DNA of 64,000 nt, from positions 419,574-483,573 of the forward strand of contig JH720338.1 of assembly GCA_000231825.2 (NCBI GenBank), given 5' to 3'. Numbering within the stretch: the first letter of the stretch is position 1; each line of letters begins with the position of its first letter. This stretch comes from Tetrahymena elliotti 4EA. Lineage: Eukaryota; Ciliophora; Oligohymenophorea; Hymenostomatida; Tetrahymenidae. The notes below the pieces were generated by a model. The model did not search any database and was not told the DNA's origin. It was given only the letters and a program-made list of their open reading frames with translations. Positions 23,501-53,629 of the stretch are shown here, in pieces. The position numbers and the translations under genes are program-made.

Positions 23501-24708
23501 CCATGGTTGCAGTTCTTTTTTTTAATTGATTTAATTTTTAAAATAAATTTTTTGTAATAAGTAAGTAAGCAGAGTTATTTTTCATCTTTATATTTATTCT
23601 TTTAAACAAATAAATGAAAAAACTAAAATTTTAAGACATTTTTTTATTCGAAAACGAAAATAATATGAAATACTTTGTAATCTGCTTAATCAAATAATAT
23701 CCAATTATTTTATTCTTAGAAATCTTACCTATACTACTATGTTATAAGTGCTATATCTCCAAAACCCTCCCATTCCTTGAAGGTCTTGACTAGTTTAAAA
23801 GATGGAAATTTTTGTTGTATGTACTCTTCATCAGTTAAATCAAGCATTTTGTCCTCCATTTAAGGAGATTAATTTTGCTTAGAAATGTTTCTTTTCTTCC
23901 TTTTCCTCAGTTTTTTTATCAATATCTCTTCTACTTTTTATTAGAGCTTAGAAGTAGGAATAAGGCAATGCACTTAACCTAAGTAAAATAGAAATATTAT
24001 AATCTTTGAAATTGAGTTGAAAAAAAGAAATTTAATAATACCTTTTATGATCATGTAATAAGTATCTCCAATATCACCTACAAATATTAAAATAATTTCA
24101 AAATAAATTCCTCATACGATGTCTCAATAATTATAATAGAACTACTTTTTACCTTAATTGAATATTGTATCTCTGACTTCGAAACGCTATATTTTTAATT
24201 CCCTAAATAATTAAGTCACTAATGATTCTTCTTCAAAAATCATTGGATGATTTGCAAAAACGCCAATCTATCTTATAGCAGAGATAATAAATTCTTTTTC
24301 AGAAGAGCTCTTTACTTTTTTTTAAATAGCTGTGACTAATACCTAGTAAAAATTGCAATTTTGTAAATAAAAAAAATAAAAATCATTAAATTACATCTCT
24401 ATCTTCTTTAGAACTAAAATCTATTTATCCTTTATCAATAGTCTTTTGGTAATGCTCTTTAAAAATAAGCTGCTCTAATCTACTTAGTTTATTTGATTGT
24501 TACCCTAATTCTTAATCTTAATCTACTTAAGCTGGACTTTGAGTGTCATCGCTAAATAATTTAGAGTCATATCTACAAAATTTGCTCTGAGCTATTGAAT
24601 CTTACTTTATCCTATTTACAATATCCTTAAACAAAAATCATAAATTAGTCTAAAATAATACAAATAAAAGTAAAGAGTTAGTTAAAAATAGATTACTGAG
24701 TGGATCAT
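20528..24708 (-). CDS. Second protein with two cyclic-nucleotide-binding domains
   Basis: Ten exons fit one frame: 24708-24697, 24625-24395, 24342-24153, 24077-24042, 23978-23729, 23514-23250, 23166-22903, 22850-22574, 22487-21273 and about 20916-20528. They total 3129 nt (1042 aa). The first cNBD has TIFNQGDIGDTYYMIIKGQV and the cassette GFGDIALITQQYRTAT (Glu replaced by Asp, Arg kept), so it is likely able to bind. The second has KVLFEEGQPINHVFFILEGE but no clear cassette Arg. A Gln/Ser/Asn-rich tail of about 600 residues follows. It matches the protein at 4710-10271 in domain order, in a shared MVCKED block after the cassette, and in a 36-nt microexon of the same phase. The 12-nt first exon (MIHS) is tentative; the frame stays open further upstream. 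An earlier stop at 21106 is possible with a different acceptor, but the exon ending at 20528 has strong coding character. Confidence 0.8.
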
Positions 24709-26951: not shown

Positions 26952-28355
26952 ATGGGTGAGTGTTGCTCAAAAAGTACAGTAACTAAAACTGAATAAGAAG
27001 CTTAAGAAAGTTTAAGACCAATAAGTATGGATAGTCATTTAAAATTAACTTAAGCTCCTTCAGTTACATTAAATGAAAATCAAATAGAAGAAGTCTTGAC
27101 TCGCTTTAGCCAATTCCCACTATCAAAAAGTAAGATTAACCAACAAAATAAGCTTACGAAAGTTGAATGTCCTTCCCATAAAGGTAAGTATTTAGATAGA
27201 TTATAGCTAAGTGACTACAGTTTGAAGTGCTTTTAGTGTACCTAAGAATAATATTTGAACCAGGATAATTTGATATAATTAAATGATATTTTTTAGATGG
27301 AAGATAAGGATTATCTTAAGAATTTCTTAAAAATCAAAGTATCTTAAATTAACTAGAAGAACTCAAAATGGTATGGAAAAGAAAAAGAAAATTCTGAATT
27401 AAATATGTAAATACTTACTGATATGAAAGATAAGATCAACTAAGAAATTGATAGATAAATTTAAGAAATAAAGGAAAGCAGCGAAATCCTACAGTAAAGA
27501 AGATCCACTTTAAGCTAAATGAAAGAAAACTGCAATAATTTAGATAAATGTAAGTAGTATCTATCAAGGCAATAGACTGCAGAAGAAATGTAACAAAATA
27601 TCTTAATTCTTTAATAAAAATAGAAAGAAAGCAACAAATAGTTTGAATTAGAATTTTAAATGTACAATGATATTCTTAAAAATTAAGTGGATAAATAGAA
27701 TAATATCTTAAGAAATTCTATCCCTTAAATTAAAAATGTTATTGAGAGGGTTCAAAGAGAGTTATAAACTAACCACACTAATTTATTTAACTTAATTACT
27801 GGCGTTGAATAATTCAGAAAGGATAATTCTCATCTTGGTGAGTATCAAATAAATGTTAATGAGCAAGGGTTTATTCAGATGTAAGCTAATAATTAAAATA
27901 GCTACTTTTATTAGATAAATTACAATCTAAATGATGGTAAAAAATATGAAATTTTAATGGATATTGCAAGAAATGACTTTTCAAATACTATCGAATTATT
28001 TTTATTGCCTTCATCTGATTTAAACAAATAATAGAAAGAATCTAAGCTCTTTTTCTCCTATAGAAAAGAAATAAATGATATCAATCCTAATTCTTAAACC
28101 AATCAAATTTAAGGCTAAACTATTCTAAGATGCAAAGAATAGAAAATATAAAATTTAAAGTTATAAATTGATCTAAAAAATAACATTTATAGATGTCAAT
28201 TTGGAAATAACAAGAATATTATTACAAATTCAGCTTATTTCAAAAATAATGAAAAATATTTTTTCTCAATTTATACTTTGGTGGAAAAACTTTAAGTAGA
28301 AATCAGTTTAAAGTATATGAAAGAAGTTGAAAATTTTGAAGATTGGTAATCATGA
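26952..28355 (+). CDS. Acylated coiled-coil protein with B-box-like Cys/His motif
   Basis: An intronless frame from ATG 26952 to TGA 28353-28355 encodes 467 aa. The N-terminus MGECCSKS fits dual acylation: Gly2 for N-myristoylation with Ser at position 6 and a neighbouring Cys pair for palmitoylation, suggesting membrane attachment. Around residues 75-100 a CPSH...CFQC pattern, followed by a Leu/Ile-rich stretch, resembles the B-box-like zinc motif found in many ciliate coiled-coil proteins. Residues about 135-280 are heptad-like and rich in Gln, Glu and Lys. The C-terminal 180 residues (from about GEYQINVNEQGFIQMQANNQ) look globular and beta-rich but match nothing I know. A role as a membrane-tethered scaffold is inference only. 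Confidence 0.75.
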
Positions 28356-28817: not shown

Positions 28818-31800
28818 TCAACAGTAAACATAGTCATCATCAGTATACTTTTAAAGAACTTTTGCTAACTTTGAATTATACTCATTTATTTATTAGTAAT
28901 ATCCACATTAATCTAAATCTTTTAATTAAAAAAATTATTCTATTAATTTTAAAATTTTTAGAATTTTTAAAATATTAATTAAAATTACTTGCGTTTTTTT
29001 TAGTTGCGAAAGATATTAATTTCACTTCTTTCGATAAATGTAAAGGAACTTTGTAAGGAGAAAAAGCAGATGTAGTAAAGTAGCCATAGTAAGTAGTTTC
29101 CTCTCTTAGAAAATCAATAAAAACTGAAGAGTTACCCGATGTATCTGATACTACATTAATACAATTTTCTTAGTAAACTTGTTAATTAGTTGCACTCAAG
29201 CAATTAGCTATTTAATAAGGCTGTATATTTGTTTAAATTTCTTCCACAAATATTGCAAATATATTAGACTAAACTTAAGTTTTTAACGTTATTGTAACAT
29301 CATACACATTTTAATTAATTAAAGAAGGAGATAATAAGAAGTATGGAATTTAAACAGGCATTTCTTGAATTTAAATGAAATTAGCTTTTTCAAAGGAAGG
29401 AATAAATCTATCAAGTTAGCTGATTATTTAATTCTACCTCTATTAGAGCAAGTTTTAAGGATCATATGATCCCCATATATCTGGAATGATTAATACTTAC
29501 TTGGTATGGAGATATCCAAAAGAAGGAGTATTTTAATTGTTTGCATCAAAAGAAGATAATATAATAATATTTTTTGTGCTTATCCTAAGAATCGAAGAGA
29601 GACCAAAAATTAAAGTTTAGTTGTTCACTATTTTAGAAAATGACAAAAACAAAGAGCAAGGTTAGGAAATATCACTTGTGTTGAAATACTACTTATGAAT
29701 TTTAGAATAACCCATAGCATTTTAAGCCATAAAGTATATAATATAATTTTATTAAGCTTAGAGATTTGTGATGATAATTTATTGCATATTTTCAATCAAT
29801 AATAGATTGAATTAGTTTGTAAATACATATCCAATATTAACAGAGGATTTATAATAGCTATTTAAAAAATTTTATGTATCTGGCTCAATTTATTCCTAAC
29901 CTAGAGTCACTATGTAATTTATTTTGCATGACTGATCAGTAAATAGCTTTAAATAGTATGTTATTAAATGAATTAATTACTAAAAAATGAAAATAAGTAA
30001 ATATTTACAATAAACTTTGCCGTTGTTTAGCTGATGCTATCTTAAACTACTTTCATAATTTGTGGATTATATTGAGGAGCACTTTGAAATATTATAGGCT
30101 TACCAACAAGCTATGAATAATTATAATCAGGAGTAAAAGTCAATAATTGTATCCTGGCTACATTACTGTTATAATAAGGGGAGTAAGAAAACACCAGATA
30201 AAACTCATCTGAAGGATAGAATTTATAAAAGCTCTATAAATCTTAATTTGATGCTTATATCCTAAGCTTTAAAGGAATCGGTTAAGGAATTTTTGTGCCA
30301 TTATAGCTTAATTAGAACTGATATTCAGTTTAATTATTTATTATTATTTTAGGATTCTAAAAGACTAATTTATTCACAAAATCTGAAGAATAAAATTGAT
30401 CCTCTTAGTTGATTTCCAAGCTAAGATATCTATTTTATAAATTTATTTATATTAATGTTGTTCATTATTTGTCTTTCAAGTTTTTCCCAAAAAATTTATC
30501 TCAATAGAGCTATTGGATGAAAAAATGTTTATGTTTGGTTTTAATTTTTTGTTTAGCTTAAAAATAAATAACTTTTATATTTTTTCAAATAAAAAATAAT
30601 TTATTTGATAAATAAGCCTAATTAAGAGTAAGAAAAAAAAAATCTTTTTAAATATAATTTTGTTTTTTTGTAAAAATTTAGACAATTTTTAATTTCTAGA
30701 TAAAATTAAGTTTAAGTTGAAGAAAGTATGAAAATTAAAAAGTTACGTTGGTTGGGCTGGTAAAGAAGACATTGAGATGCTTATAAAGAAAGGATAACCT
30801 TGAGTATTTATATCTAAATTATCTAGATTAAGAGTAATTACTGGTCTAGTAGCTTGATCACTAGATAATTAAATATTTAAATCTGGTATGTTTATAAAAT
30901 TATCAAATTGAGAGTCCTAAGATTATTAAAATCTGAGTACAAAGTATTCAAACTTTGATGTTAATTGATAATCAAAAGTAAAGTACAAGAAGAAAGATTA
31001 AATCAAGTTATTTTAAAAGTCTACGAACGATATTTAGTTAGGAGTAACTTATACTTATGAAGAATCAATAGGTGTTAATGTTAATTAGTGTAAAATAACT
31101 GGTGTAATTACTAAATTATATGCAGGGGCTGATAGCATTATTTTATATTCATATTTTAATCCCCTATACAGTACAGCTGGTCCACCTACTTAAATAGATA
31201 AGGAAAATGCATTTTAAAAGACAATAGAATGGGAGTAGTATTTTGGATGAAGTATTCTCTAATTAACATCTGAACATTTAATTTAGCTGCTTGGATAATC
31301 CATTATCTTTACAGAAAATTCATTAATTTAAATAGAAGGGAATTAAGAGCTTGGATTTATTAAATTTTTTATGACTAACTAGAATGATGAAGAAGAAATT
31401 GTTAAGAAACTAAGCTTTAAGGCTATAGAAGTATTTGATGAATCTATGCTAGTAAAACTATAACACTAACCTGAATTAGCTGATATTTAATTTTAATTTA
31501 CCTAAATAAAGCATTCGATATTTTAGAGATATTTAATCTTTTATTCACGAGGTAAAGTGATTATTAGCAAATAACTTTAATTTGTATTGACTATTTATAA
31601 AAAATTATCTGAATATTCAATAGTGAATATATAATCTGTAATTTGATTAAATAGAAGAGACTATGGCTAAATGCTTGAAATGATGATAAAATGTGGAGTT
31701 TCATTTGTTATTTGATATTGAAGCTGCTTTAATATGTTTAAGTATAGTATTTAAAAATTAGAAATAGAATCAAATACTTTTAATTCAAAATTCTAAGGCA

Positions 31801-34800
31801 AATACATTTAGGGATTGATAATATTTTTTATAATTAAATAATTCCAAGAATTCTAAATGTTTTGGTTTTGTGATATATCTAATGTAAACTATATTGTATT
31901 TTAAGAATAGAGCTAGCTTTGTTAACTACTTATTGGTGATATCCTTGTTACTTACATATCTTAAATTAACTATTCAATCATCAGCATTGAGTATATCTTT
32001 TGATCTGGCTAGTAGTAATCTATAAAATATTCAATGCTTTGTTCATATTTGTTCATATTTCCAAAGTTATCAGGGAATTTTAAAGTCATAATTACTTGAT
32101 TTTGAGATAATTTAAACATATTTTTAATATTCTCATTATTTTAGCATAGCTTAAATACATAATATGCCCTTTAATTAGGCTAACTTGGTATGTTCTAAGA
32201 GAGAATAAATGAATCACTAAAGATCTAAGCATCAATTGAAGTGTTTATACTTTATATTGGATAAAATTAGATTGTTTGCTATAGCCTTTGGCTCAAATTT
32301 ACAGTACTAGAGCCATAATACTAATATAGTTAATCTTATTCATAGAGCTTTACAGAATAAAAAACTGGGCTAGGATTGTAAGAAGGATTCATTAATATGG
32401 CTGATATTTGAAAAGTTGACTACGAAGGTATAAAAGCAGTTTAAACTTCTAAGGTATAACTCTCTTCAAATAAAGAATATTGTAATAAGCAGGTATCGGA
32501 TAAAATTTATGGAGAAGAGCAAGCAATTTGAGTAGAAATTCCACTTTATTATGAATAATAGCTATAGTCTTATCCTAGAATAATTACTAATTTAGAGTTT
32601 TTTGAAATATCAAAATTACCAAATATTTAAAATTTATACATTGATTCTATTTAGTATATAGGATAATCAACTTAAACAACAAAATTAATAGGCCTGATGT
32701 AAATTTAAGTGATCAAAGGGTACCCAATACTAGCCTTAGAATAAGGTTAATTGACATTTAAATATTGAGAGTTATAATAAATAGCTAAAGAGAAGTATTG
32801 TGATTATTTTACTAAAGAAACATCTATACTTGGGTTCGAAATATTATTAAGAATTATGGTATATATACTTGTAGGAGATAAAAGTAAATCTTAAAGTTGA
32901 ACATTAGCAATATTATATCCTCCAACTGAACAACTTGATTAGTCTTAGAAACCTTCTAGAGAGCAAGAAAACCCAGCAAGTTAATAAAGACTTTTGAATG
33001 TCAAAGTTGGTAAAATAATTTATATAATTCCAAAGCTGGGGAGATATTAATTTAACTAAAATTAAATTTTATATTGAACATTTTAAGCTCTTGCCACAGT
33101 AGAGTTGTACTGTAAGTTGGTATTTGAAATCAAAGTGTTGTAGTCGTTACGGTAATTCAATAAGTTAAAAACATAGGAAGTGTCTTGTTTTCTATTAATG
33201 TAAGTAAAAGCCTTTATCTATAAAACACCTTAAGGAATTGTGAAAAAAGGATTTATAAGATTTCTTATGGTTATTGTCACTATTGAATTCATATTTTAAA
33301 CAGCTAATGGTTACACAAATATTATACTACCCAAACTAAAAACATAAACATTTGATCCTTCTGGGCTATTCACTCCTGAGAAGTCATTAATGTGTTTTGG
33401 AATAAAGCCTTTTTTTAAATAATAAATTTAATATTTATAATTTTAATCATTTTTTGAATGAATTGAATGAAATTATTTATTTAATTTTTAGTTTTACCTG
33501 AAGGAAAAATAAAGGCAACGTAATCTTAAGTCTTTAAATTTTATGCACCTAGTGTGAATGTGAAGGTATAAGAACTATAGCCTAAAGTTGTGGTTGATCC
33601 AGTCTAAGTAGCTATTGTAGGATTAGTATTAGAGACTACTTATAGAGATGAAGTTAAATCAGGCATTAAAGGTGAAGGCATGTATAAATAAGATCTATTT
33701 ATAGCTTAGTCATAAACATTTGATCTAAGACCACTATTCAGAATAGATACAACAGGATTTAAATAGTTAAAAACTAATTCAACTGCTACTTTTATTAAAC
33801 CATAGATATTTACATCAAGAGATTGAATACCAATAAAAATTAAGTCTATTTTTGTGTTAGGGCTTATTTATTCATAATTTAAAACTCTTATTCTACTTGT
33901 TGAGTCGGCTTTCTTAGCAATCTGGAGGAAACATTAAATTCCTTTTCCTTATGTAAATGTAAGACCTGCTTTGCTGACACAATCTATTTATTATCCATCT
34001 TAAAGCCCGGTCCCTATATCCTATTATTTTTTAAAATAAATAATAAACAAAAAATTAACAAAAAATTCCTATTACTGTAGAATAACCAGAACCTTTTTAA
34101 ACACCTGATGGTATCCATTCAAAAAGAATATGAATTTCTGAATAAATAGTTGAATCTGATCTAAGATAGCCTTAGGGAATAGGGACACTAGATGTAACAA
34201 AAATGAGTTCATTTAAGTTTGCACTTTTATAGAATGAACAATTTTGTAATTAAATTTATTTGAAAAAATCATTTACGTTTTTGCGTCTAATCCATTTAGG
34301 AATTGCATAGTATTTCTATCAAACTAAACTCCGATTGTTCTTGAAAAGAAAACTTAGACCTCCTCAATTGGATTTATTGTATTAATTTAACATAAATTTA
34401 CTTTAATCTGATAATGCTAACTTGGATATTTAGGTGATTAAAATTATTCTGCCTATGTCTATATATAGAAGAAGTTAGGTTAGAGAGATAAGAAATACCC
34501 AGATGACAGAACAATTTCAATTTAAGATTTTCCTTCAACCTGTTTTAACTAACACTTGTCTAGTTTCATATTAACTTAGTTGTTGTAAATTTAACATCCT
34601 TGTATAAACATAATTGGAGGGTACAAGAAACTATCTTCAATTTATAGAACTATCCTATTGATATTTGGGTTAGGAGAACTTTACTAGATAACACCATAGA
34701 ATCTAGCTTCTCCCTAGAAAATAGACTTTGCTTGATGGAATGCATATTTATTCCAATAAATTCCTGCATAATAAGGAACCTTATCATTAGAAACATAAAG

Positions 34801-37800
34801 CTATGTTGTTGCCATTGTCTGATAAAATCTGCTTGGGCTGATAACGTTACATGACTGAACACAACCGTAAACAATAAGATTATCAGTTAAACCTGGAGGA
34901 ACACCCTATGGAGGGAAATTAGAATCTACTATGAGTTTAAAGTAAACAGATAAAACTAGACTTGAAAAAGAAGGCTAATAATTAGCTCCGTTTGATGATA
35001 TGTAGAGAGCATCTCCAGTAGAAGAAATAGAGCACTCTAAAATAAGTGGGAATGGATTTGGATTAGGTGTAAGAAGAGTAGCGTTACAATAACTTTAGTC
35101 AATAAAACCCTAAATTACTTTTGGTTTCCAAACAACAAAGTCAGTTATGTAGGAGTCTTACCAGATATTTGAAACTATGAGCTAGGCAATATTTTAGAAA
35201 TTTCCTTTTAAATAAGTATTCTAGGTTTGTGTATTAAAAATAGAGGCAGATATTCCTTAAGTATAGGGAACATAAGGATTAAAAATAATCTTATATGCTT
35301 ACGAAATCAAAGATGTTTGTCCATCATATATTTCAACATATATATAATTATCCTAAGATAAACTAGATAAACTAATGCCATTTTAAATATTATTTAAAGA
35401 AAAACTATATGTTTGTCCAGGATTAATTGGAGTTGAAGGATTAAATATTATTGATCTATCATTTAAAATTTAGCATAATCCCTAAGGTGTATTACAGGAT
35501 TGTATATGAACATGATTATCTGGGTACGTTATCAAAATATCTTTATTGGCTGGAACAGCATTTACAAATACTATCTAAAATGCATGATTGGCCATCATAT
35601 AAACAATATTTGTACTAGGAATCATCGGAGATACCTGAAGATCATATTAGATACCTATAAAATGAAAAAGATTATTAAGAAAATTATTCAAAATAAATAT
35701 GTTGTTAATCTAAAAAAATAATGAAAAATATCAAAAGTAGAGAAGAAAGAATAGCAACCGTTTGAAGGAAATGGTTAAGTTGTATAGTAGTTTTTTGAAT
35801 GATATAGTATGCATCTGTGATCATTTTCTTCTATGTTACCTTAGTTTTCTCTGCATTAAGTCATGATTTGCAAGTAGATTCCAATTGTAGTTTGCATAGA
35901 AGGATTCTAAATATTACTTATCCAGAAAGAAATTAAAGTTGATGGGTTAACATTTTATTTGAAAGGTATCCTTATTTGGTTTGATTCTAAGTTACATTAT
36001 AATTGAGATGAAGGAGAGATTACTTAAGGAGAAGATGTTTCTTAACATTAAATTTGCTACTTTTATTATTAAAATCCAAGATAAGGTGTAAAAATTTAAT
36101 TTATTTCATCATTCATTTCGAATATTATTCTTATTTCATCTCCTGTAGATACCTTATAGTTAAGAGTAAATTGAAACTTCATACCTCTGGAATTTTAAGA
36201 GGAATAACAATTTATAACACTTAATTTAAAGCTGTTATCTTATCTCACCTATGGTTCGTATTCAATATAGCTACTTTCTAATAGTAAATTGGTTGCAGAA
36301 TCTTTTATATTTATAACTACATTTTTTAGCACACCTCTAATTGGATATTAAACACCTTTTATTTTAATTCAATTTTTTATTTATTAAAAATTTTTCCATC
36401 AAAAATTACCTTCTGAATAATTTGGTTAAGCTCTAACTGATGTGAATAAAACATAATAATCTGTATTCTAAGGTATATTATAAGTAGGGAATGTTTGCAA
36501 TTATAAAATGTTCAGAGCTATACTATTACTTCCCTCATTTACTTAAACTGGCCATGATTGATAATATCTGTTTTTTTAATATTTAAATTTGACTTAATAA
36601 AAATTAAAATAATTACTTCATATAATTGATTATGTTTGGACCTTAAGCAAACTACCATTATGCACTCGTTTAGTCAAAAACTAATTCAATGTAATTATTT
36701 CCATTTATTAGAGTTGTTAGGCTGGGAGATAATTGTAAGTATAAAGGATTAAATTCTTAAGTGAAGTAAGTGACTAAATAAGTTGGAGTTATTTTAAGAA
36801 GTAACAAACTTGATGAAATTATAGGTGTATTGAATATAGCTATACCAACTACTGAGCTGCTTTAAACAATTAAGCTTGATGAAATTTTTAAATTACCAAG
36901 AATCTAAATAGATAATAGATTGATATTTTAACCAGATATCATGTTATCTAAAAGAAGTCTTATAGTGACTTTAGTGTTAATAGGAATATCACCAAACGAA
37001 TAAATTTAAATTATATTAGTAGCATCTATATATACTGCCCTTATTGATGAATAAATAGGATTTACATTAAAATTGTTAACGAGCTTTATACAATTAAGCT
37101 AACTTTTGTAAAAATGCAACTATGGAGGTAAGCTGATATTTATTATGCCTTACTATGGAATAAAAGGAGTTAAAAAATTGATTTCATAAAGATTCTGACT
37201 TCCAACATTTTATATTCCTTAAATCCTATTTAGATTTTTTAAAGATAAATCTGTAATTGCACTAAGAGTATTTCTAGTCGGATTATTTGTATAGAATAGA
37301 GTTTAAGAAACAGAAAAATCTGTGATCCAAACCAAAGAAAATCCCCATTAAGCTTGATAATTCTAACTCTTATAAGAGCTTCCCAAATTGAAAAAGGCAG
37401 GTTTAGTAATTGACTGTAAAGGAGTTAACATGATCAGATTAATTATTGGAAAGTAGACAACTTAGCAGTTAGGTATTATTAAACTAGAAAGTATTTACTA
37501 AAGATTAAGAATGCCATCTAAAGTATTATCATACTTAAGTAAAATTTAATTCGTTACTAGTAGATTTGTATTAAAAATTGATATTGACATACCAAGCAAA
37601 TTTGTTTGAATTTAATTGTTAATATTATTGTATAAAACAAAATCTGTATTTTGAAGTGTTAGAGAAAGTGTAGAATCCTTCACATAGTCATGATTTAAAA
37701 GCCTTTTTTTGTATAAATTTTATGAAATTTGCTCTGTTACAAAAGAACTGACTCTTTTCTTTATTATCAAAAAAGTGTAATCAATAGTGTTTAAAAGAGT

Positions 37801-40800
37801 GGAAGGATTTAAAACCATTCCTATGTTTAAAGTGTACAGAGTACCAGTCAAAATATTTCCAACATTTGATATGATTATTCTAATTTAGTCAAATTGATTT
37901 GTATATTATCCTATTTAAAGGATACAACTTGGAACAACACCAATTTAAATATTAGGAGTTAAAATACAATTATATGATTAACCACTTGTAAAAGAACCCA
38001 AGTTATCATTTTGATACACCTGTGCAATACCCAAATCTTAGAGATAGTAATTACCTTCTATATGTAAAGCTAATTAAACTTCTTCATTTACACTTTGAAC
38101 AATATCTTTTGTTACTGAAAAATTTATTTATATTACATCATAAAATGTTGCTGTCGTAGTAGCATGCTTAATAGTAATTGTGTCAAATCTTGTTAATAAA
38201 AATAATTAAAATGCTTGCTACTGTATGATAGCATTTGTTGCAGAATCCCTTATATTAAAAAATATAAGCTCTTATCCATTATTACTATTATTCTACAATT
38301 GTATTTAGCTATTTTAAACTACCTCTTATATTTTTAAAGAATATTATTAATTAGTATTTAAACCACCAACAGGACTTTAGACTTAGTAGCTATTTGTAGC
38401 ACTGTTATACTAACATGAGCAAAAGATAGCTTTATTTAATGAAAAAAATTAAAAATAAAATTAATTACATATCATAAAAATAAGTTTTAAATTTATTAAT
38501 ATTAAAAAATTTATACTTAAACCAAGGTCTGAAGATGCTAGGACTGGAGAGAAGGAGCACATTATTCCATTAGCGTTATTGACTTGTACTAAATTACTAG
38601 TAGCGATTTCAAAATAGTTGGTACTAAATGTTAAAGACAATAAAGGGTTGAAATAAATATAGAACACTAAAGATGAAGTGATATCTTAGAAAAATAATTA
38701 AGTAAATGCTGTTTCATAGTATCCAAATATATATTTTTACTAAAGAAAATCAAGCTCTGTATAAATTTTTGCAACAGAATCAAACTAGTTTATGATATAT
38801 GTTTAAGAACTAGAAGAGTCATCAAGATAATCACTAGTTTATAACTAGAAAGTGTACTAAACATTGTTTGATATTACATGACCTTATATAAAGATAGAGA
38901 AACCTTGAGCAGTATTGAAGCTACTAACATTTAATACATCTACAGTGTCAGCTGCTATAATATGACAACTTTAAAAGTTATTGAGATATGAAGAAGCTGT
39001 TAAGGTTGTTATCCAGCAACTTTCTAAATTAGAAAATCCAGAGTTTATAACTAAATGCAGTTTTTTGATCTTTCTTTAAAGTAAAGTAATTGTGTTTGTG
39101 TTAATTGTAAATTAAATTTCACAAACTGCTCTTTAGTTAAGAGCTGCTATAATTTCGTTATCAAGACTGAAAGGATTTGAAATGTCTATTAAAAATGGTG
39201 TAGAAAACTAAAATATGTTAAATGCTATATTTGGGCTTAAGTTTAATTAAGTAGTATATGTTAATTAATGAGATAAAGGAGGAGTTTATCTCTATAAATT
39301 ATTTCCTTAATAAAAACTTGCTAGTACTTAAGGATTAATACCATAATCAGGCTGTTAGTATGTAAAAGGATTGATGACACTTTTAAATAATAAATTCATT
39401 TATTATGACTAATTAATTTATGGAGCACTTATATATATACTATTTGTACTACTATTTATCCAAAGAATGTTAAGATTAGTTTGAGTACCTCCTTAAGATT
39501 ATTATATTATGATGCTATTAATTAAATTAGATGCTAAAATTCCATTAATAAACTAAAGTCTGATTTTATATCCACTATATTAATTCATATCATAGTAATT
39601 ACTATTTATTGGGTAGTTTAACACAAACACGGGATAATCACTAATTTATCCTTAAATTAAATTATTAGGAGTATCAAAATTAAAAGGTCCTATTGCTATA
39701 ATAGCAGGATTTGGAGTTACCCCATCTACAACGAGTAATTACTATACTTTCAAAAAATAAAGTGTAGTGTCATTCAAATAAACATTTATCAATAAATTCA
39801 TATTCCACCACTGCAAAACATATTTAGCAGGCAGCTACATATCATCAATAGCTATTGAAAATTAAGTATTTGCCTTGACAGAGTTAAACTATTCAATTCT
39901 TATTTGTAATTTTCCATCTTCACTAGGACCAATAATACATCTTGGACTTAAAATTCTTGTTATTATTTGTTAAAAGGTAGTGCTTAATTAACAATTTATT
40001 GTATCTCCTATTTTTAAATATTTTTAGTTTTAAAATAATGAAAAGTAGATGAGTGATACCACTATCATCTATCTATAAAATATTTTTGTTAAATTTGTCA
40101 AATTAAATGAGTTGAGGGAAACACTTAAATGTTTATTAATTTAATTAGATTTTTAATTTGATCAAAATTTGAAGAGTACAAATAACTAAATTGTACTATT
40201 TTAAAAGATTTAATTAAGAATTAAGACTGATATTACCTGGATTTTGTGTAGGAAAAGCCTATAAAATAGTTAATTCTGGAAAAGTTAAAGTTATAAAGCT
40301 AGTTGGATACCCGTCTGGAAGAGCAGGAGTTAGAGTAAATTAAATAAATAAACTTGTAGTTTGTTGTTATAATCCTGAAGTATAATAAAGACTATTCAAC
40401 TCTATTTATTATATTCCTTGATCATAATAATGTAGTAAGCGAGTATAAAAAAGTAAATTTTAATTTAATTATCTTGCAAACATCCAAACTTCTCTATAAG
40501 TATTAACTGTATCTTTTTAGAACCCAATTATTTTATTGTTATTCATAGTTGAAATGATAAATTCATATTTAACATTTGGTTATAACTAAAGTTAAACTTT
40601 ATTAAATAAAATTTCAAAAGCAGGAGAGCCACTAGGATCAAATATTGAAGCAGAACATAAGAATGTATTATAAGACATTTATTTAATTGGGTCATATTAA
40701 CGTAAAGTGCATCTAATTGAAACCTAAGAAGCATCTACAGTCTTTCCAGCAAACACTCTCATATGCTAAGTTATTGGTATAGCAGTCTAAAAGTTGATAA

Positions 40801-43800
40801 AAAATCTCTCAGAAGTATTAGGAAGAGTGTATATTTTTGGAACAAAAGGATAAATCTTCATATAACTATAGCTTAAAAATTACTTAGTAGAAGATGAGTC
40901 TACAGTTTATATTGTTTATGTGAATAAATTTTAAACTGATATTTGATTAACTATGTCTGATGTATAAGAATAATAAAATGTCAAAGTAAAATCTATGTTA
41001 TTTGAAGCACTATTTTAAACACTAAAATATACATTGATGGTATTTTAAGTTTACAAATCAGAAACAGTCCTATAAATCCTAAATTTTAATTTAAAAAATA
41101 TTGAAATAAAATTTGATTTAAAAATTTTGTTTAATTACCAAAGTCTATGGTTAATAGCATTTGAACCATCATAATAACACACCAAGTCAGGTATTGATTA
41201 CTATTCAACCTTATTTTTATAATACAGATATAATTATAAACATAATATTTCTTTTTAATTAAATTAGCCTCAAATAACTCTGATTGAAAAAAAAAATATT
41301 AATTTAATTAAATATTTCAAAAAACTCTTATTAAATTTTTTCTTTTTAAGTTGAGTCTATAATTTTTAATATTAAATGTTTTTAATTTTTTCATTTAAAA
41401 AAAATTGTTGAAGAAATATTTAAAATTTCTTTAAAAAGTAGAAAATTGAACTGATTTATGCTGACATATTTAAAATAAAAAAAATTTTATTCTAAAAAAA
41501 TGATTTCTGTTTAAAAAATAATAAACTACCACAACAAAGCAAGCATTCTTAGCTAATGTAACTTATGTTTTGGCAAAAGTTATCAGTATTCTTCCTTTAT
41601 TTACAGGAATCACAAAAGTATTCAAAAGGAATGTAGCTGCACATATTTGTGTCTGTAATCCAACGTTTAGAGTTAAGAATACATTTGTAACTTTAAAGAG
41701 AGTACTTTAAGCAAAGTTGAAGTTTGCTGATGGGAAAAGCTACTGAAATTGATGTGTCATAATACCTTATGTTCCATCAAATACGAAGATATCTAATTCA
41801 AAGTTAGCAAATGTAAAAGGTTTAGCTGGCATCATTAATTAAGGAGAACCTTTAAATACCGTAATTTGTGTTGGATTTTATCCCACTTGACATACTATTA
41901 GAAGAGATTAGACTGAATATACCCTATTTTACAAAAATATTGGGGAATTACAAAAATCTAATGTTGGAACTGGTCCTATTTATGGTAATCTGACATAGAT
42001 ATAGGGCCAATTAAAGAATTGAGAATTAACATCAACAGCAAATCTTACAAGTGGCTACTCATTTACATATCTAGAATTATAGAAAGTTGGTGGGTCAATA
42101 CCAAACGTGCCTGCTTTTAAAGTACTTTGGGGTAGGATATTTACTAATATAGTTTATTAGTAAACATTTGCATATCCACCTACTCCTTGGTAGTCACTAT
42201 ATATTGAAGGGCTTGTTAATTTTATCAAGACCCCTAAATTATTCTATGCTAATGGATTTATAATCTCGGGAATATAGCAAGAAATAGAACTGAATTATGC
42301 AGCATCAATATATAGTAATACAGAAGCTTAGTATAAACCAGTTGGTATTCTTCTATAGCAATTCTGGGGTTACAAAGGATTTCCCACTACCATTTTTTTA
42401 ACAGTAATAAAAATTAAATAAGATAATTGCTTAATTTTTTAAATAAATTTTGAAAACAAATATTTTAATTTTTTACGTGGTATTGAGCAAAGACATGATA
42501 TCTTTTATGATTCTTTTGTAGAATCAGTAGCATAAATAAAATTTGTAACATATGTAGGAAAAACTAATTAAAGAACTTAGTTATAGGCTATGCCTATATT
42601 TTAATTCAGATTATTTAATTAGAATTAATATTCTGTAGTATACTGCTATTCTAAAGTTAAAGATTTAAAGCTTGGTGTATTTCCTATTTGAAGATTATCA
42701 TTGGTATAGGAAAAAACATTTTCCATCAGTAAAACTGTACTCGGTGATAGCGTAGGGTTAAAGCATCTTTACTAATATGCATGGAATCTTGACCAAACAT
42801 AACTTTGGGTATTAGTTGGAGCAAAAGTTTAGTTAATAAGAGTAATTTATATTTCCCATAGTTTATTTTTGTAATTTAGAATATTCCCCATTTCATTAAA
42901 TTACTCAAAGAACTCTATATATATCATAGGATATCCATTAGTACTGTACACTATACTACAAGTAACTTCTTCTTCAGGGTTAAATGGAGATACAGGTTGC
43001 TTGATTCTTCCTGTAATATCTATTGTACAGGCAGTTTATGTTCTATCAAGTTCTAATCCAAAAAGATATATATACCAGTAACCCCAATATTGTCTATTTG
43101 TATTTATTGGAGAAATACAAGCTTAAGCACAAGAACATGTCATGCAATATGATGCATTTGTACAATCCCCTCCAATATACATATCTAAATTAGTTTAAAA
43201 ATTTATAGTTATCTAAATATTATCTTAAACTCCTAAATTATTATTTGTAATTTTTGATATTTTATATAGTGTTCCTATATTTAAACTTTAATTTATGAAG
43301 CCTTGATTATTAGGTGCAGTAAGCATAGGAAACTAGTAATCAGGTGTATGAGTTAATATAGAGTAATACATAAGATGGCCTTAAGAGGTGCTAGGTAAGT
43401 AAGCAGCTGTATTTGCATAATAAGCAAAAATAACACTTATTGAGTTTGTTGGACTATATTAAGAATTGGTGTGTTAGATTCTGATTTTCAAGCCTACATT
43501 TTTCTGTGGAAGAGAAGTACCTTGAGAATTCATAAAAGGATAATTAATTATTGAGTCAAAGTTACTAATCTTAAGTCTTGTAGCTATTCCTCCTGAAATT
43601 ACATTTGTTTCTATTGAACATTAAACTTATTCTCCAATATGATCAGATGTATTAAGTATAGATAGTCCACTCATAACTGTGCAAGATGTGGCTCCATTAT
43701 TAAATATAGTATTAGTTTGTGTAGTACCTTTAAGATAATATGAAAAGTATTAGACCTTAGATTTTTTCATCAAAAACAGAGAAAAAATTTATTTTACCTT

Positions 43801-46800
43801 AAAATTCTAAAGAAATTATATTGCCAAAAAAGGGAGTAAATAGAGTTAAAAGTGAAGAAATATCAATTTTCACTAGTGTCTGAGAAGGTTAATTCTATTG
43901 TATTGTCAGGAAATCAAAATATTATATTTTTACATTTGGTGTTGATAGTAACTAAGCATTTGCAATTGATTAAGCATCTGATAACTGATAAGTCAATACA
44001 TCATAAGACCCAGACATAAAATGATTCACTTTTTAATTAAAATTTTAATTTATAATTACATTATTTAAATTCTTCACAAAATAAGCTAATGAAAAAATCA
44101 TCAAGTGTTAGTTAAATTAAAAAGTAAAAATTAATTACCAACTACATTATATCTGTAATGATCACACTTCATTGAACCAAGATTAAATATTTTTGTAGAG
44201 CTTTCAGATGCTTAAAATAATCTATAGGCGTAAACATATTTGACCATAGTTGTTGGTGTAGGAAAAACTTGTAAATAAAAGATATCTCTAATATATTGAT
44301 CAGGTGCAAAAAAGCAAATATTTGGATCACTTTAATCAGCTAAAACAATCTAAATAAGGCTTGATTAAGTTGTAGATTAGATAGATTAATTTGTAGTAAA
44401 TTTAAGGCTATTAATTTGCTACATGGCAGAAGATGGGATAAGAGCAGATGGTGGTAAATTATTAGGTGTACTTTAAACTAAACTAATCACGCCTAAGAAT
44501 GAATAATCTCCCTTAAATTCATTCCCATAGGGATATTAAAAGTTTTAGTTTCCACCATAAGCTTTTACTACAATTAAGAAATCAATCGGTGTAGCTAAGC
44601 CTGCTACAGTTCCAGTAGGGTTTTAAACCATCAATCTAAATATTTCTGGTTGGTTAGGAGTGTAAGCAAATCCAAAAGCATGAACTCTAATAGGTTTACC
44701 AAATTAAGTGATTTGGCCTTCTTCTATGAAGCATTTTATTGGAAATTGGCAACCAGAGGTAGTAGGACCTTTTTATTATAAAAATAATTTGATAATTTTA
44801 GTTTTTAAGTTAAATTTTTTACTTCCCAAATTTAAATTGCAATCAGGAGAAGAGTTTGGTGTGGGTATGCCCTTTGAACAAGGAAAAGATGATCCTGTCT
44901 ATAGACCGTGCATAGTTGTTGTAGTATAAATTTAGTTTTTAAGTTAATCAACAGTAAGAAATTCAAAAACTAACCCCTTAATATCTGACCTATCAAAAGT
45001 AAGAGTGAACTCTAAAACATTGATAGCTCCTTTAAAGTTATTAGCTGAAGTAATTGATCCAACTTCAATTCCTCTATGAGGAGGAGTGATTGGTTAATCT
45101 AAATCATACATTAATTAAATATATTACTAGAAAAGTGAAAAACTTACTTTGAGTTGAATAAAAAGCTGAAAAGAAATCAGAATGTAGAAAATAAGAATTC
45201 CCTCCATTGATAACTAACTCATATTTAATTGAATAGGCTCCATCATCGCCAATATAAAAAAATCCATCTTTTTCTAAATTATTTGGGTCTACAGCTGAAA
45301 CATAAAGGTAAATATTTGATCCCAGAGGTTAAGCTTCAATAAACTCAACTATGATTTGTAAATTTGTGGGATCATTTGTACATCTAACCCTCATATTATT
45401 TACATAACAAACCAAGCCATCAATAATTAAATCATTTTTAGTACTAGGTGTTGGTATTTAAATTCCTTAATTATAATGTACTATTATTTAATGTGAAGTT
45501 AGCCATGTTGTTGCTGGTATGTTTATTGGACTTTCTACCTCTACTTTTATTGGAATTCTTTGAGTTCTACTATATGCCACAAATTCATCAAAATATCTAT
45601 AATTTTTAAAATTGGTAGGAATAGTAAGAAATTTTGTGAAAGATTTTGGATATGTTTAAATTTATTAAATATCTTGTTAATATCCTTTTTAATATAATTT
45701 ACTGTTAGTGAATGTAGTCAAATAAAGTGGGGACTGAAGGATAAACTGCTGCTTTGTCTGCAGTTATAGTCAGTCCACCTGTCATTTGCTTATTATCACT
45801 AAAGCAAACGTAATCATCTGAAACTCTTGGATTTAATACAATTGCTGGATCAGAATACCAAGAATAGAATTTTAAATCAAAGTTATTATATGGAATAACC
45901 TAGGTTGCTGCAACTATTTATGGATTAACCATTGTTAAGGAGAGTGTTTCGAATGAGAGATTAAGTGTACCATCACCTGAAAATTTTAATTTATGAGTAT
46001 AAGGTGGGAGAAAAAAAGTATGAAACACATACCTATAAAATATGGGAGGTTGGGAGAATTTTGTACAGTAATCCAAATAATTTTGTTTGTGGAATCTATT
46101 TCACATCTTTAGATTTAGACTTAAGATGTTGAAGATTCTTTGCAATTAGAATCTGTTTAAATTAAAATATAAAATACTTATAAATATTATTATTTTATGA
46201 TAAAATTACATTTAAATGAGAAAGCAGAAGAACTTGGAAAAATTATGGCTAATTTTTTTACAATTGCCCAATAAGGAGCAATAATAGTAAAGATATAGTC
46301 CATATTTATATTTTAATAGGGAACAATGTTTCCTTTACTTACTATTTACATACTAACACTTGAACTTACCTAAGTAAGAAGCTGTGGGAAGCTATCAAAA
46401 TAATTTATTTTTTCTGTCATTCTCCTTGAGCTATAGTAAGCAAATCCTATCACAACTCTCTGTGCAGCATTTTCTAATTTAGTATAAGGAGTAAAAAATG
46501 CATTGTTAAACCATACTAAATTTGTAGGATTAAGGTTTCCAGACTATGATGGAAAGACTAGTATATATCCATTATTAACAAGTATTGCACAGTTAGATTT
46601 AAACGGAGTAGGTGCCACATTATTATATTAGCAACTAACTAGAGAGGTAGGTTAATTCAGATATAATGGAAAATTCAATCTCAACAAATACACATCTTAG
46701 TTTGCAAATTATAATTACAAAGTAGGTTATGCTCTAAAATGTATAGTTTGCACTAGTTTATGGCAAACAGTGTTTTAGCTATCTCCTAAATCAAAATCTC

Positions 46801-49800
46801 CATTTAATCCTGTCACATCGTTCATCCCTAATTAAAAAAATTTTTTTTAGCTTCATTTTTAAAAAATTTTAAAATAATAATATCATCGAATATAAAAATA
46901 TTTCAGAATTATTTATATTTTTTTAGGCTATTCAGAAAATTGATATAATTTTTTCAATAAATTGTTTAAATCTTTTCATTTTTAAAAGTTATTTATTAAG
47001 AATAATTACTCTCAAAACAATTAGTTTAAATTTATTTTAATTACCAGGATTTAAAATTGGAATAGCATTTATTTCATGCCTGTAATGAGTTTTAGCTTCT
47101 GATATAATATCATAAGTATATACCTGGATTGGAATAGAAAGCTAGCTATTCACAGGTATATTGGGATTCTAAATTGATATTGCAATTTAAATAAAATCGC
47201 TGCTAGTGACCTAACTTGATAATTGAGAACAAATAAATTTCAAATTTTGCTTTAAAGGTCTGTAACCTTTAAAAAACCTGCAAGTCATACTAAAATTAAC
47301 TGTAGATAAACTTAAAGAAGCATCAACTAGATCATATTAAACAATATCTGAATCTTACAAACTAGAATACCCTCCGTTTTCATCAAACAAATTTTTGGAA
47401 TCAAGAGAAATAACTGGAAACTCTAGAATAATCTAATCTGTAACTTTAATGGTGACTTAAGGCTAAATCTTGAGCAATATTAAATTCCATTCACCAGGGA
47501 TATTAATCAAACTTTAGATAAGTATTTATTGGAAATCACTTGAATATATTTTTATATAAATTTAGTCTATTGTTTTATAATCACCTAAACCCTATGGATC
47601 ACAAGCAAGAGATATTCTAAATGTACCTGGATTTAATCCAAATCGTATACCTTCCTAATTGATACCATTCACTGTTGTAAGAACAAGCTCATATCTTTCA
47701 TTTTTATTTAATATCTCATTAGGTAGCATGACTATCCTCAAACTATTTTTAGTATTTGATGTATTAACTTCTTGAATACTAGTTATCAAGCAACCTATCT
47801 TTTTCCCTATATTAGTTTTACTTTCAAATCCACATACATATTTATCATTTTTATTGTAAGGAAACCCTCCTTAACTTTTTCTATTTACTGAATATCTTTT
47901 AAATATTTAAAATTAGTAATTAGATCTTTGAAATCATTTAATAAAAGATACCTGAACAAATCTATCTAAAATTTGCCTTAATTTCCTAATACATCATCAT
48001 CTATTTTTAAATGTATTTTCAAAGGTCCTTTAAAATTACTTCTCAAAATATCTTGCTATATATCAACATTATTACTTTCTTATTTTACTATTAATAAAAA
48101 TTGTGAAAACAAATTTAACCTATAAAAAAATATACTCATGCTCTCATACTAAGACATTACAATCATTGTATTTGGTTCATTTAAGATTTAATCTATCAAG
48201 TAACCTGTTGTTAAAGTGCTTGCACTAAAACCTGTACTCAAAGTTGTTATTTAAAGACTTTGAGTTGTTATTTGTGCTGTAGGAAGATCAACTTTTCCAG
48301 TAATTATAATGTTTGAGTTAGCTTAAACTTAATTTATATTGCTTATAACCCATTAGTTATTATTTTAAACACTACACCCAAACGAACCACTATTTAATAA
48401 GTAATTAGATTATAACTTTGATCCACTTTATACAGAACTCTCGCAATGACTATAAATTACTGGAAAATCAGTTGGAAACTAAACTACAATAGAGCCACCA
48501 GTAGGGATAAAATGAGTAGTTGTAAACTTAAGCTAAACAAGAGTCTAAATTGAGTTAATCAAAGGTGATTAACTGTTCATTAAATTCAAAGATACATTAG
48601 TTAAAGTACCAATGAGCATTTTCCATTAATTTGCTGTTATTTAATTTACTACTCTTCCTTAATACAAAGTACCTTACCAAACGTATACATAGTAAATTGT
48701 ATTAGACTAAGGGACAGAAATAGGCAATTAGCTGACTTTTAAAAATTAAAAGATAGGTTAATTTAAAATTTAATTATTGTTTCCTTCTTTTAATGTAATT
48801 TGAATTTAAAAATAATGGTTAAGTAATTACTAATTGAGTCATTTATATTTGAGAAAGTTAATGCTGGTACTTATTTAGTGACATAAACTAATATATTAGC
48901 ATCAGGGAAAGATAAGCATAATAAAAATTATGACACATCACATCCTAAGAAGTTCAAAGTAGGAGAAATAGTAGAAGGTAGCTAAACATAATAAATATCT
49001 TAATTAGAGAATGCTGTAGTATAGTAAACTCTATTTGAAATCATAGCAACATTCGTACTTCCCACACTAGAAGGATTACTAAAAATATTTCCTACATATG
49101 GATTAGTTAAATCTGGATTTGGTGTTGATACTTGCATATTTAAAAATACATTAAAATAATCAAGATTCAAATTAGAGATAATTGATCCATTTGACTGATC
49201 TATTATCAATACTTCAATTTAAAAAGTAATATCAACAACTGGATTTGATGGATTCACAATGTTTGTTATAAAAACAAACAATTCTTAATCTTGTAAAATA
49301 CTGTCAAAATTTATTATTTCTACTCTAATACTATCAGTATCATAATCTTGAGGCTTTAGTCTACATTTGAGTTGCTTACCAATCTCTGCTTGAATAGTAC
49401 TAATTACATAAAATTTAGAAAAATTAAAATAATTAATTGAATTAAGGAAAGAATATTACTTTTAAGGCTAAGAAAAATTACAAGCCACTAAGGTATCAAC
49501 CAATGGATCGTAATTTAATCCTAAATTCGAGTTAAATAAAGCAGTTCCAGCTTAATTAAAGGTAGGAAATACCAAGTAAATTCTACCTCCTCCAGAAAAT
49601 TTAACAATTTTTTATGGAAATTTAGCATGAAATAGTATCAAGTTATACTAACTTGGGGAGCTACAGTAAGATTTTACATAGAAGAATATTAACTTTTAAG
49701 GATTGACTTTGGTGTATTTTGTAGATAAATTGTTGTTGCCAAACTAATCAATTAGCTTCATTTAAATTTAGTAAATATTTGCTATTGATGGATGCTAAAT

Positions 49801-52800
49801 ACCATCTAAAGGGCTTATATATTCTGTTGATATTAATAGAGTATTTGGATTAGTGTTGATTACAATAGCTGGATTTGTTTATGGATAAACTTCTACAATA
49901 AGCTAAGGAGAATATGATGTTACTTTACAATAAACTCTAAGTTAATTAATTTAGCAGTACATAGGTACATTTTAAGTAATTCCATTTGGAATAGTAAAAC
50001 CAATATCAAATTAAATTTCTATTGTTTTTAATGCAGCTACAATAGTAGGTGACTACTAAAATTAAATAATAAATGGACCAACATAATTGATAGGGGGATA
50101 TTCATTTTATTTATAAAAGTTATCAATAATATTAATTTTTTAAAGTGAATTTATATTATTTGTAATTGGGTTGTCTGCATTTTTAACATCAGTAATAGAG
50201 TCAATAGGATTACTATTTTAATCCAGAGTATAAATATCGCAACTAGGATTTATTGGGTTTTATACTGGATCTGTGAGCAATCTTAATGTTATTGTTAGTT
50301 GCACTCCAGAATTAATCTTTTTAAAACCAGTGATTTTGAATGAATTTGTAGAATCATCTTTGGTGCACTAAATAGGAAAATAAGATAAACTCTAAAATTA
50401 AGGTGATTTAAGCTCACAATAAAGTAAATATCTACTAGTTTAAACTGTTACTCCATTGTAAAAGAATATTTAAATAGATCCTTAATCTGGTATATAATTT
50501 TTTGTAATAAATGATACTGTAAAATACTCTTCTGTATTTTTAATTATGTATTATCCAAGATTTGTAATTTTAAAATTAGCTGTATTTATTAAATCACTCC
50601 CAAATTTTATGTAGAAAGATGCTTTTTTTATTACTCTTTAGCTAAATAAGGCATAAAAGTTTACTGTAAAACTACCTTAAAAAGGAGGAGCCTAAATAAT
50701 ACCTAGAGGGATATCTGTAAGCTAATTGTAAATAGGGGGATTTAACATTATTGGTTGAGCTTTTTTTTCAAGTATAATAAAACCATTTCCTGATGGAGCT
50801 CTTGGTAAATAGTAGCAGGTACTTGTACCACATGAAAAAATATTAGGGATAGATGCATACTTAAATGAAGAAGAGAAGTAGTACAATACTGTATCTACTG
50901 GATTCAATGTATAAGAAATACTCAAAGATGGTAAGCTATTAATGATAGCACTACTTTATAAAACACTTACTTCATAATTTATACCTGATCCACCAGGCTA
51001 AGATTAGGGGAATAAATTCCATTTCTTATTTATTTGGTATAACTGAACATATTAAGTAGTCATACCAGGTGTTATTTAATTAATTGAGAATGTGAGATCT
51101 AAGATATTATCAGGTTCAATATTTAATGGTATTTCACTTATTACAAAGCTTATACTTGTACCAGAGGGTATAGATTCAAATCCATATATCTAAACTCTAT
51201 CTTCAAATAAATCGCATCTAATATTAACTCCTGTCAACCCTTGTATATAGCATGAAAAATTTTATATTGATGTCTGGCTATTTGACAAAACAATATCAAC
51301 ACCACTATTGAAGCTTAAAACAAAAATATAATTTGTTGGACTTCCATTCATAATCAAATCAACAGGACAACTAAAAGATATTTCAATAACTAGCATCTCC
51401 TGTTATTCTAAAGCGAGAGGGTTAATAATAGCATTAGATAACTAGAATGAATCAGGAACCCACTCTCCATAAAATATTTCTAGAGGGGATGCTACTGGAT
51501 TATCTGAGTTGAAAGTTTAAACTGTAAATTCGTATCTTTACAATATTGTATTTACTAGAATACCCTCTTGCTCTCCTAAATTTGAAAAATAAAAAAAAAT
51601 TAATTAATAAAATTAGAGAATGAAAAACTCAAATATTTTTATATTAAATATTAAAAAGATAAAAAATAATTAATTACCAGGTATTGCTCCCTCTGTAGTA
51701 ATAATAATAGGTATTTCACTTTAGAAGAATGCATAGTTTGATGGTGTATATATTGTAATTATTGATTTTGCTGTTTATGCATTATTAATAACACAGCTTG
51801 TTGCCATAACTCTTTCATAGAAGAGACATTTTAAAATCCCATTTTAGGATGTTACAGGCTATTAAACTTAAGGAGTAATAGTTATAACTATTTTTCCAAG
51901 AGTTGAGCTAGTAGTAGGTGGTAATTACACATTTAAAAATAATAATATCTCAATAGGGCCTCTTTCCCCAGCTTTTAGTTTTGCTACTTTTCTCATTGGA
52001 TGAGCTCTAAATATCTTCGAAGTCCCCTCTTTATTAAAATTTTTAATTATATATTAACAAATTAAGTGCTAACATAAAATATATACTTTAAGACCCAATC
52101 TAAGTATTTATTAAAGAATAATCTACAATCTAGTTTGATCCACTAAGTTTAGATAATATTGTAAAGCTATATTAACCTTTTTTTAATATTTTAAAGATTT
52201 TTTAATTTTTTTTGTTAAAATTTAAAATAATATTGATTTGAAAATGAAAATACTCTAAATTATTTGCTCAAATATTTACCTTAAATTGAAGGTGAAATAA
52301 TAGGTAGCTCAATTATTATCTTATTATAAGGTAGTAACTTGGTGAATGTTGAAGCTATAAAGTTACTTCCCTAGAGCTCACAAGTATATTGTGATGGGTG
52401 ATCATCTTAAATTAGCACTATAGCACATGTATTTGAAGTAATTTACCATTATGAATCAAATTAAATTTATATGTAACCATCATTTAGTCCATGCTCAGTC
52501 TGAATAGTTAGATAATATACAGGGATACCAAAAGATATCAAAGATTTATCTACTGTTGTTTCAAGTTAAGCAAAAATATTTCCTGGTTAAATTTATATTT
52601 ACCCATCAAATTATATTGTTTCTACAGCTAAATTCGTGTTATATTTAAGAAGATCAATTTAAAAACCCATAAAATAACCAGAGTAATTCGGATTTATCAT
52701 ATTTATTACATCTACTTAAACAAGACCAGATAAGGGCTTAGTTAGCACTAGACATTCAATAATTCTTCCCATGTATAAATTGCTAATTACTTTTTCACAT

Positions 52801-53629
52801 GTGTTATCTTCTATTCTAACTAAAGCTTAACTGCTTGTGAAATGCTCAGGAAAAATGATTCTGATAGAATGACCACTTTAGTAAATTCCAACCAGCTAGA
52901 ATCTTTTGTTTTTTTTTAAATTTCAGTCAACAAAATTAGCTTTTATTTTTAATCAATTTAAATCATTACTTGAAGGAATAACTTGCCCCTGATGAAATTT
53001 TCAGCCATGAAATGGGAGTAACTTAAGCAGATAGCATTTAAACTAATTAGTATTTAAAATAATAGTATAAAAGATTATTGTATAATATATTATTTATATT
53101 AATAATTACTTGGAGGATCAGCAAAAGACTACTTTCCAAAACTAGTTTGACATATTACTTGATTTTAGACATTATTTATACATAATTCGAAGTCTGAGCT
53201 TTGATCATAATTTGTAGGATTGTTCACCTAACCAAATATTATTGAATTTCCATTTTGTGTTAGTAGTGATCCATCAAAATTAAATACAACTGTGTTAGAA
53301 AACTAGTTAATTTAGCAATCTATATCTTAATAGTTATTTGTTCCCTAAATTTATGAATAAATTTAACATTAGTTAAATAGGCTTGGTAGAATAATCTCTT
53401 TAGGAAACTTTAAGCTCACATTTAATTCTGATTTATCTAGCAAAGATACTATTTTAAATTCTTCTTTTTGGCTTTAAAATGAAAAATCTACTTAGTAAAA
53501 GGTTTATTGACCTTTTGCTGAATTTAAAGGAACTACTGATTAAGTAGAAGGATCAGAAAATTCTTAAATTGTTTTGGAATTAATCAGCCAAACAAATGTA
53601 TTTAAGAGTAAAACTATTACTCTAAACAT
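28818..53629 (-). CDS. Giant secreted repeat protein, intron-rich
   Basis: The gene starts at 53629 with a signal peptide, MFRVIVLLLNTFVWLINS, and I follow it to TGA at 28818-28820, where the chain ends QKYTDDDYVYC. There are about 20 or more introns, many starting GTAAT. Exon 1 is 53629-53110 and exon 2 starts at 53042. Some gaps that look intergenic (41100-41560, 46830-47040) are introns with matching phase. The protein, probably above 7000 aa, consists of divergent beta-rich units with a core like SGHSIRIIFPEHF, DGYIQIQFDSQW or NKGRILITF followed by a pair of Cys. I see no membrane anchor at the C-terminus, so it may be secreted or held at the surface by partners. No enzyme motif is visible and the repeat family is not one I can name. 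Splitting into two genes cannot be fully excluded, but I found no internal start with a signal peptide and no clear stop. Confidence 0.75.

Follow-up and report, generated by a model that had tools for sequence, protein, structure and literature searches.

A 64,000-nucleotide stretch of contig JH720338.1 (positions 419574-483573) of the ciliate Tetrahymena elliotti 4EA (hereafter the window) contains one giant gene on the minus strand, which runs from an ATG at 53629 to a TGA at 28818-28820 (window coordinates). We consider it reasonably likely that its product is a secreted, unanchored and very long chain of immunoglobulin (Ig)-like beta-sandwich beads which serves as a scaffold in a coat or matrix. 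According to this model, many beads would carry a cysteine pair, and the chain, ending in a short hydrophilic tail, would be exported through the endoplasmic reticulum (ER). It would then form a flexible or semi-rigid rod with a contour of about 150-200 nm if extended (an estimate based on 40-45 beads of about 4 nm each). By binding other components or itself the rod could become part of a layer outside the cell or on its surface, and paralogs would provide parallel versions of it. Neither an enzyme family nor a C-terminal membrane part has been found in the protein, so its most likely mode of action is through shape and binding: it would serve as a coat, matrix or spacer that is kept in place by partners or by binding to itself.

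The window is ciliate DNA with 20-29% G+C (in 2-kb steps) and TGA as its sole stop codon. The gene uses the ciliate code: under translation table 11 no open reading frame (ORF) of at least 150 amino acids is listed in the window, and in the merged coding sequence TAA (381 times) and TAG (129 times) are read as glutamine, with no TGA in frame. Our hand-merged model consists of 33 predicted coding exons without internal stops and encodes 7,230 amino acids (818 kDa, isoelectric point 5.35). Two ab initio models also start at 53629 and end at 28820-28821, one with 44 exons and 7,027 amino acids, the other with 51 exons and 6,892 amino acids; with the T. malaccensis protein as a guide and the gene ends set in advance, 31 exons and 6,908 amino acids down to 28963 are obtained. 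In the earliest ab initio run self-training had inflated the exon number to 60, with over-split exons reaching beyond both gene ends, and this was corrected by means of the T. malaccensis ortholog. Exon boundaries are predictions throughout, and exon calls vary between models; short introns rich in AT are predicted (14.0% G+C versus 27.8% in the predicted exons). Two stretches that are absent from the annotated model of the ortholog were kept in the merged model, i.e. 52028-51972, because paralogs carry it, and about 47874-47301, whose unit-like frame we retained by our own judgement. The original prediction, made from the letters of the window, had placed the gene at 28818..53629 without stating a strand; these coordinates are right to the base, and its example motif DGYIQIQFDSQWQITSNTC is located at residues 339-357.

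The sole relative obtained from protein database searches is the hypothetical protein ABPG74_013423 of T. malaccensis (7,948 amino acids). Residues 1-6918 of this protein correspond to 53629 to 28963 of the window, with 81.5% identity over 6,884 aligned positions. Because its tail (residues 6920-7948) matches a separate stretch of the window, 24718-20531 on the minus strand, the public T. malaccensis model appears to fuse two genes. No other relatives were found in searches of 5.8 billion proteins, which were limited in length range and sensitivity and could easily miss relatives at 25-30% identity; they yielded the ortholog as one of 1,257 candidates, none of 3,110, and only the query itself among 590. 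The T. elliotti genome contains at least eight loci of the family on four contigs, the window gene included, and five of them were modelled. Eight is a lower bound, because the genome search scores the best candidates only. A C-terminal probe detects at least four places, its own locus among them; probes from the N-terminal third give at least eight and at least five hits, and a probe from the C-terminal third at least 13.

Identity to the window protein amounts to 29.6% and 29.4% for the paralogs C38a and C38b, and to 24.7% and 24.0% for C25a and C25b, the last of which lacks some 2,400 residues from its middle. Among the paralogs identity ranges from 24 to 60%. C38a and C38b, which are identical at 59.8% of 6,688 positions, lie next to each other on the same strand at a distance of about 14 kb, and C25a adjoins C25b (38.8% identical). 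Three further loci are known from search hits only: a third one on contig C25 (at about 437-417 kb) and two on contig C108, which lie about 28 kb apart and are 96.7% identical to each other over a sampled 3.2 kb. The C108 pair arose either by tandem duplication in recent times or as an artefact of the assembly. Inside C25a, a gap of 100 N (C25:571713-571812) is found beside two near-identical stretches offset by 6,019 bases (5,883 of 5,919 positions equal), which is probably a false duplication of the assembly.

The order of the chain is kept within the family. The window protein aligns with C38a in three co-linear blocks (residues 136-6892 versus 10-6893, in earlier models), C38b is co-linear with C38a throughout, and C25a and C25b are co-linear in five and three blocks, respectively. 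We read the region as one gene, since the ortholog matches end to end and the paralogs are co-linear; on predicted exons, this argues against several separate genes, a possibility raised with the original prediction. The single-gene structure depends on exon calls that differ between models, and the publicly annotated ortholog is an unreliable guide, as it runs on into the gene downstream; hence one could suspect two or more adjacent secreted genes read as one. Yet the annotated protein of the ortholog spans the whole region, and the order is preserved over the full length in C38a and C38b as well as in the blocks of C25a and C25b, which makes such an arrangement very improbable in our view, even without a systematic search for internal starts.

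Thousands of residues of divergent units had been predicted for the protein. The units themselves are real, but the profile coverage extends to only 34% of the chain, which corresponds to 20 units. The consensus of the unit profile, which started from 15 seed units and has 122 positions, is YTFQFTLNNSIPSGDSIQIIFPTQF...C...C...IQISNFNQINSNSQITIIISLIINPS. As a hidden Markov model (HMM) with a domain E-value below 0.05, the profile detects these 20 units in the window gene, 19 each in the ortholog, C38a and C38b, 17 in C25a and 11 in C25b; 36 control sequences, reversed or shuffled, give no hit. With an HMM made only from units of the paralogs, the window protein still has 20 matches, and the 36 controls have two in total. 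When 46 tiles of the chain are compared profile against profile, 17 tiles take part in the 21 pairs, out of 990, that reach a probability of at least 60; with reversed targets none of the 990 pairs does. Segments compared with the unit profile yield 20 places, a result that is not independent because the profile holds the protein's own units. Most units are 12-26% identical to the folded one. The protein contains 108 cysteines, and many cysteine pairs recur every 124-191 residues; 40 of the 107 gaps between neighbouring cysteines measure 6-24 residues, versus a mean of 24.6 and a maximum of 36 in 1,000 random draws. Judging from the spacing alone, the remaining two thirds of the chain may consist of the same kind of bead. 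A two-type alternating super-repeat was also considered (hits are spaced by about 300 residues); its pairs align poorly, and the structure prediction therefore used two scoring units in tandem. Five cysteines are clustered within 16 residues (residues 3027-3042, the CTNASYCMTCSCAQAC region, at about 43 kb of the window on the minus strand); the cluster is conserved in T. malaccensis and partly or not at all in the paralogs.

The fold of the unit is probably an Ig-like beta-sandwich. For a single unit (residues 880-1027) AlphaFold2 predicts an eight-stranded sandwich of this kind, with a predicted local distance difference test (pLDDT) of 71.9 and a predicted template modelling score (pTM) of 0.70; the tandem of two units (residues 5940-6240) reaches a pLDDT of 67.2 and a pTM of 0.49. 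In the one unit and the one tandem, the models have the two packed antiparallel sheets of 7-9 strands that characterize Ig-like beta-sandwiches. Their structural neighbours include bacterial adhesin and pilin domains, with middling matches. Given these models and neighbours, a repeat fold of its own, as claimed originally, is no longer the likeliest reading. The claim that the protein belongs to no recognised family fares better: in a Pfam-A scan (2025 copy) confined to 10 ORF pieces and 32 single units, no match exceeds the curated cut-offs. For the ORF pieces, the match with the lowest E-value is DUF4645 (16.4 bits, cut-off 27). For the units it is DUF2808, a cyanobacterial family of unknown function, with 21.3 bits versus a cut-off of 25.3 (E 3e-4) in only one of the 32 units; unit residues 14-123 of 148 are aligned to profile positions 14-120 of 146, and we regard this as a lead to distant kinship. 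A sequence search of the PDB with the unit profile gives two matches up to E 1, the best (E 0.44) being a peptidoglycan-bound protein.

The MSCRAMM-type and pilin domains of Gram-positive bacteria (CNA, 1amx; ClfA, 5jq6; shaft pilin, 7woi) are Ig-like, as is the predicted unit, but identity is only 8-13%, and the giant protein differs by its recurrent cysteine pair, its eukaryotic gene with introns and the lack of a cell-wall anchor. No LPxTG sorting signal occurs in its 7,230 residues, and none of the corresponding Pfam families appears in the scanned pieces and units. The top Foldseek matches of the two-unit model are leg domains of integrin alpha chains (E 3.9e-6 for 9iuj), which are likewise successive beta-sandwiches; here, however, the TM-score by query length is 0.23-0.37, the root-mean-square deviation 9.8-18 Å and the identity 6-10%. 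An integrin-type C-terminal membrane segment is missing, the C-terminus being hydrophilic, and no beta-propeller family is found in the Pfam scan of the ten ORF pieces, most of the chain not having been folded.

Several structural neighbours of the models are adhesion domains, and the paralogs are divergent (24-60% identity); the gene might thus encode a recognition or adhesion protein of cilia or mating, held by a membrane partner, whose paralogs provide several specificities. Secreted factors essential for mating are mentioned for T. thermophila (PMC10901506). However, the proteins of the mating-type recognition complex are described there as membrane proteins of 92-212 kDa with several transmembrane helices, some with a cysteine-rich GFR domain (PMC10901506), and a secreted mating activity is ascribed to shed membrane vesicles (PMC12029339). 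The giant protein has no transmembrane-rich C-terminal part, and no GFR domain appears in the Pfam scan of the ten ORF pieces; nothing in this analysis links the gene to mating. We therefore regard a recognition or adhesion role as quite unlikely.

Secretion and the absence of an anchor, the other elements of the scaffold model, are suggested by the ends of the protein and by its glycosylation motifs. A signal-peptide-like start, judged by eye, is present in six out of six proteins (window gene, T. malaccensis ortholog and four paralogs), in agreement with the signal peptide originally proposed. In all five modelled genes the C-terminus is hydrophilic, without a hydrophobic segment of the membrane- or GPI-anchor kind. 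The window gene ends in TDDDYVYC; close to their ends C38b carries TDDDYGYC and C38a TGKQFGYC, and the two C25 genes end without a cysteine. Moreover, although the window protein is rich in asparagine, it contains only 43 N-glycosylation motifs (NxS/T sequons), versus a mean of 100.9 and a minimum of 78 in 300 shuffles; NxT occurs eight times and the reversed TxN 44 times. NxS/T is rarer than its reversed counterpart in all six sixths of the chain. The five modelled genes pooled give 217 versus 464 (binomial P 1.5e-21, which is too strong because the genes are related), and each of them shows the depletion. Since the motifs are depleted over the whole length, we infer that the entire chain passes through the ER lumen. 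A study of secretory proteins reports that sequons have nearly disappeared from buried sites, are rare at interfaces and were gained at exposed sites (PMC5562741). Perhaps much of the surface of the chain is packed.

Three points weigh against the chain of secreted beads. First, homology of every 150-residue tile is not borne out, as 29 of the 46 tiles are without a profile partner. Second, the ten ORFs elsewhere in the window that show no sequon depletion (47 NxS/T versus 46 reversed, taken together) are raw frames, which make a rough control. Third, three internal windows of 19 residues have a Kyte-Doolittle mean of 1.77-1.98, and 1.6 is the customary threshold for a membrane segment. Two of them are conserved in the ortholog; the paralogs have fewer residues or greater polarity there, and the sequon depletion extends to both sides of these windows. 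The original statement that there is no transmembrane anchor accordingly stands for the C-terminus and is left in doubt for the interior of the chain.

The secretory start, the lack of a C-terminal anchor and the depleted sequons, given their rarity at buried sites and interfaces of secretory proteins (PMC5562741), would also suit a lumenal cargo of mucocysts (regulated secretory organelles), released with an expanding gel instead of forming a standing coat. But the Pfam scan of the ten ORF pieces reveals no crystallin or other cargo domain, and with just 14 dibasic pairs in 7,230 residues no processing pattern is obvious. A mucocyst cargo hence seems unlikely to us.

The preferred model, a standing coat or matrix scaffold, has parallels in other lineages. 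Giant Ig-like bead chains and giant matrix proteins are known from bacteria and animals (PMC4083281, PMC8544517). The bacterial adhesin MpAFP (1.5 MDa) also strings together a great many Ig-like beads, whose 104 residues make them similar in size to the Tetrahymena units (PMC4083281), but its approximately 120 repeats are described as identical, whereas the Tetrahymena units are divergent and their order is kept between paralogs. DIG-1 of C. elegans is likewise a giant eukaryotic matrix protein (PMC8544517). Apilactobacillus is reported to possess giant extracellular proteins of 3,000-8,000 amino acids with beta-solenoids (PMC12863079). No description of the giant ciliate family was found among the papers listed in a literature search that excluded subscription journals and supplements.

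At least eight loci (about 15-26 kb each for the five modelled) would account for an estimated 0.2% of the 90-Mb somatic genome; despite this share, the protein searches, within their limits of length range and sensitivity, gave a single misannotated 'hypothetical protein'. Should these proteins make up a layer that is secreted or lies at the surface, they would be its principal components, in a genus with a model species amenable to knock-out and imaging. A more far-reaching and rather doubtful interpretation is an extracellular fibre system of ciliates: secreted, anchorless Ig-bead rods (about 0.8 MDa in this case) from at least eight parallel genes would assemble side by side, with faces kept free of N-glycans through packing and with the C-terminal tail, in those members where it bears a cysteine, as the site of joining, to form a structural layer of the cell surface or a ciliary coat. 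That such a system has escaped notice would be explained by gene finders, which split or join ciliate genes of 25 kb. Independently of this interpretation, the sequon-depletion test offers a cheap means to look for lumenal giant proteins in asparagine-rich proteomes.

Features of the giant gene in window coordinates
Feature	Position	Strand	Remark
Whole gene	28818..53629	minus	About 33 predicted exons, about 7,230 amino acids; gene models, ortholog, co-linear paralogs
Signal-peptide-like N-terminus, first 18 codons	53576..53629	minus	Cleavage point estimated by eye
Example motif DGYIQIQFDSQWQITSNTC, residues 339-357	52425..52481	minus	Position from exon model
Repeat unit with flanks, residues 880-1027	50152..50595	minus	Single unit used for folding, 32 rows
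Best-scoring repeat unit with flanks, residues 5010-5157	35811..36254	minus	Matches DUF2808 below the cut-off
Two consecutive units, residues 5940-6240	32261..33163	minus	Folded as tandem with 9 rows
C-terminal region	28990..29931	minus	Probe that first detected paralogs
Final predicted exon, encoding the short hydrophilic tail with TDDDYVYC at its end	28821..28912	minus	Gene model

Among the neighbouring genes, the stretch at 20531-24718 (minus strand) corresponds to that final part of the T. malaccensis record which bears a cNMP-binding domain (PF00027). A stretch at 7006-7479 (plus strand) is similar to it (34% identical), and 12917-14425 (minus strand) has a sub-threshold cNMP match. Between the cNMP-binding gene and the giant gene lies an open frame of 479 amino acids on the opposite strand (26916-28355, plus), for which no Pfam match is found at E 0.01. 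The next gene upstream, at 57782-58972 with ORFs down to about 54.6 kb, is on the same (minus) strand as the giant gene. It has a match to RIH_assoc (E 2e-14, 53.8 bits versus a cut-off of 28.5) and looks like a channel of the ryanodine/IP3-receptor type; hydrophobic stretches were noted by eye in the part of this region nearer to the giant gene.
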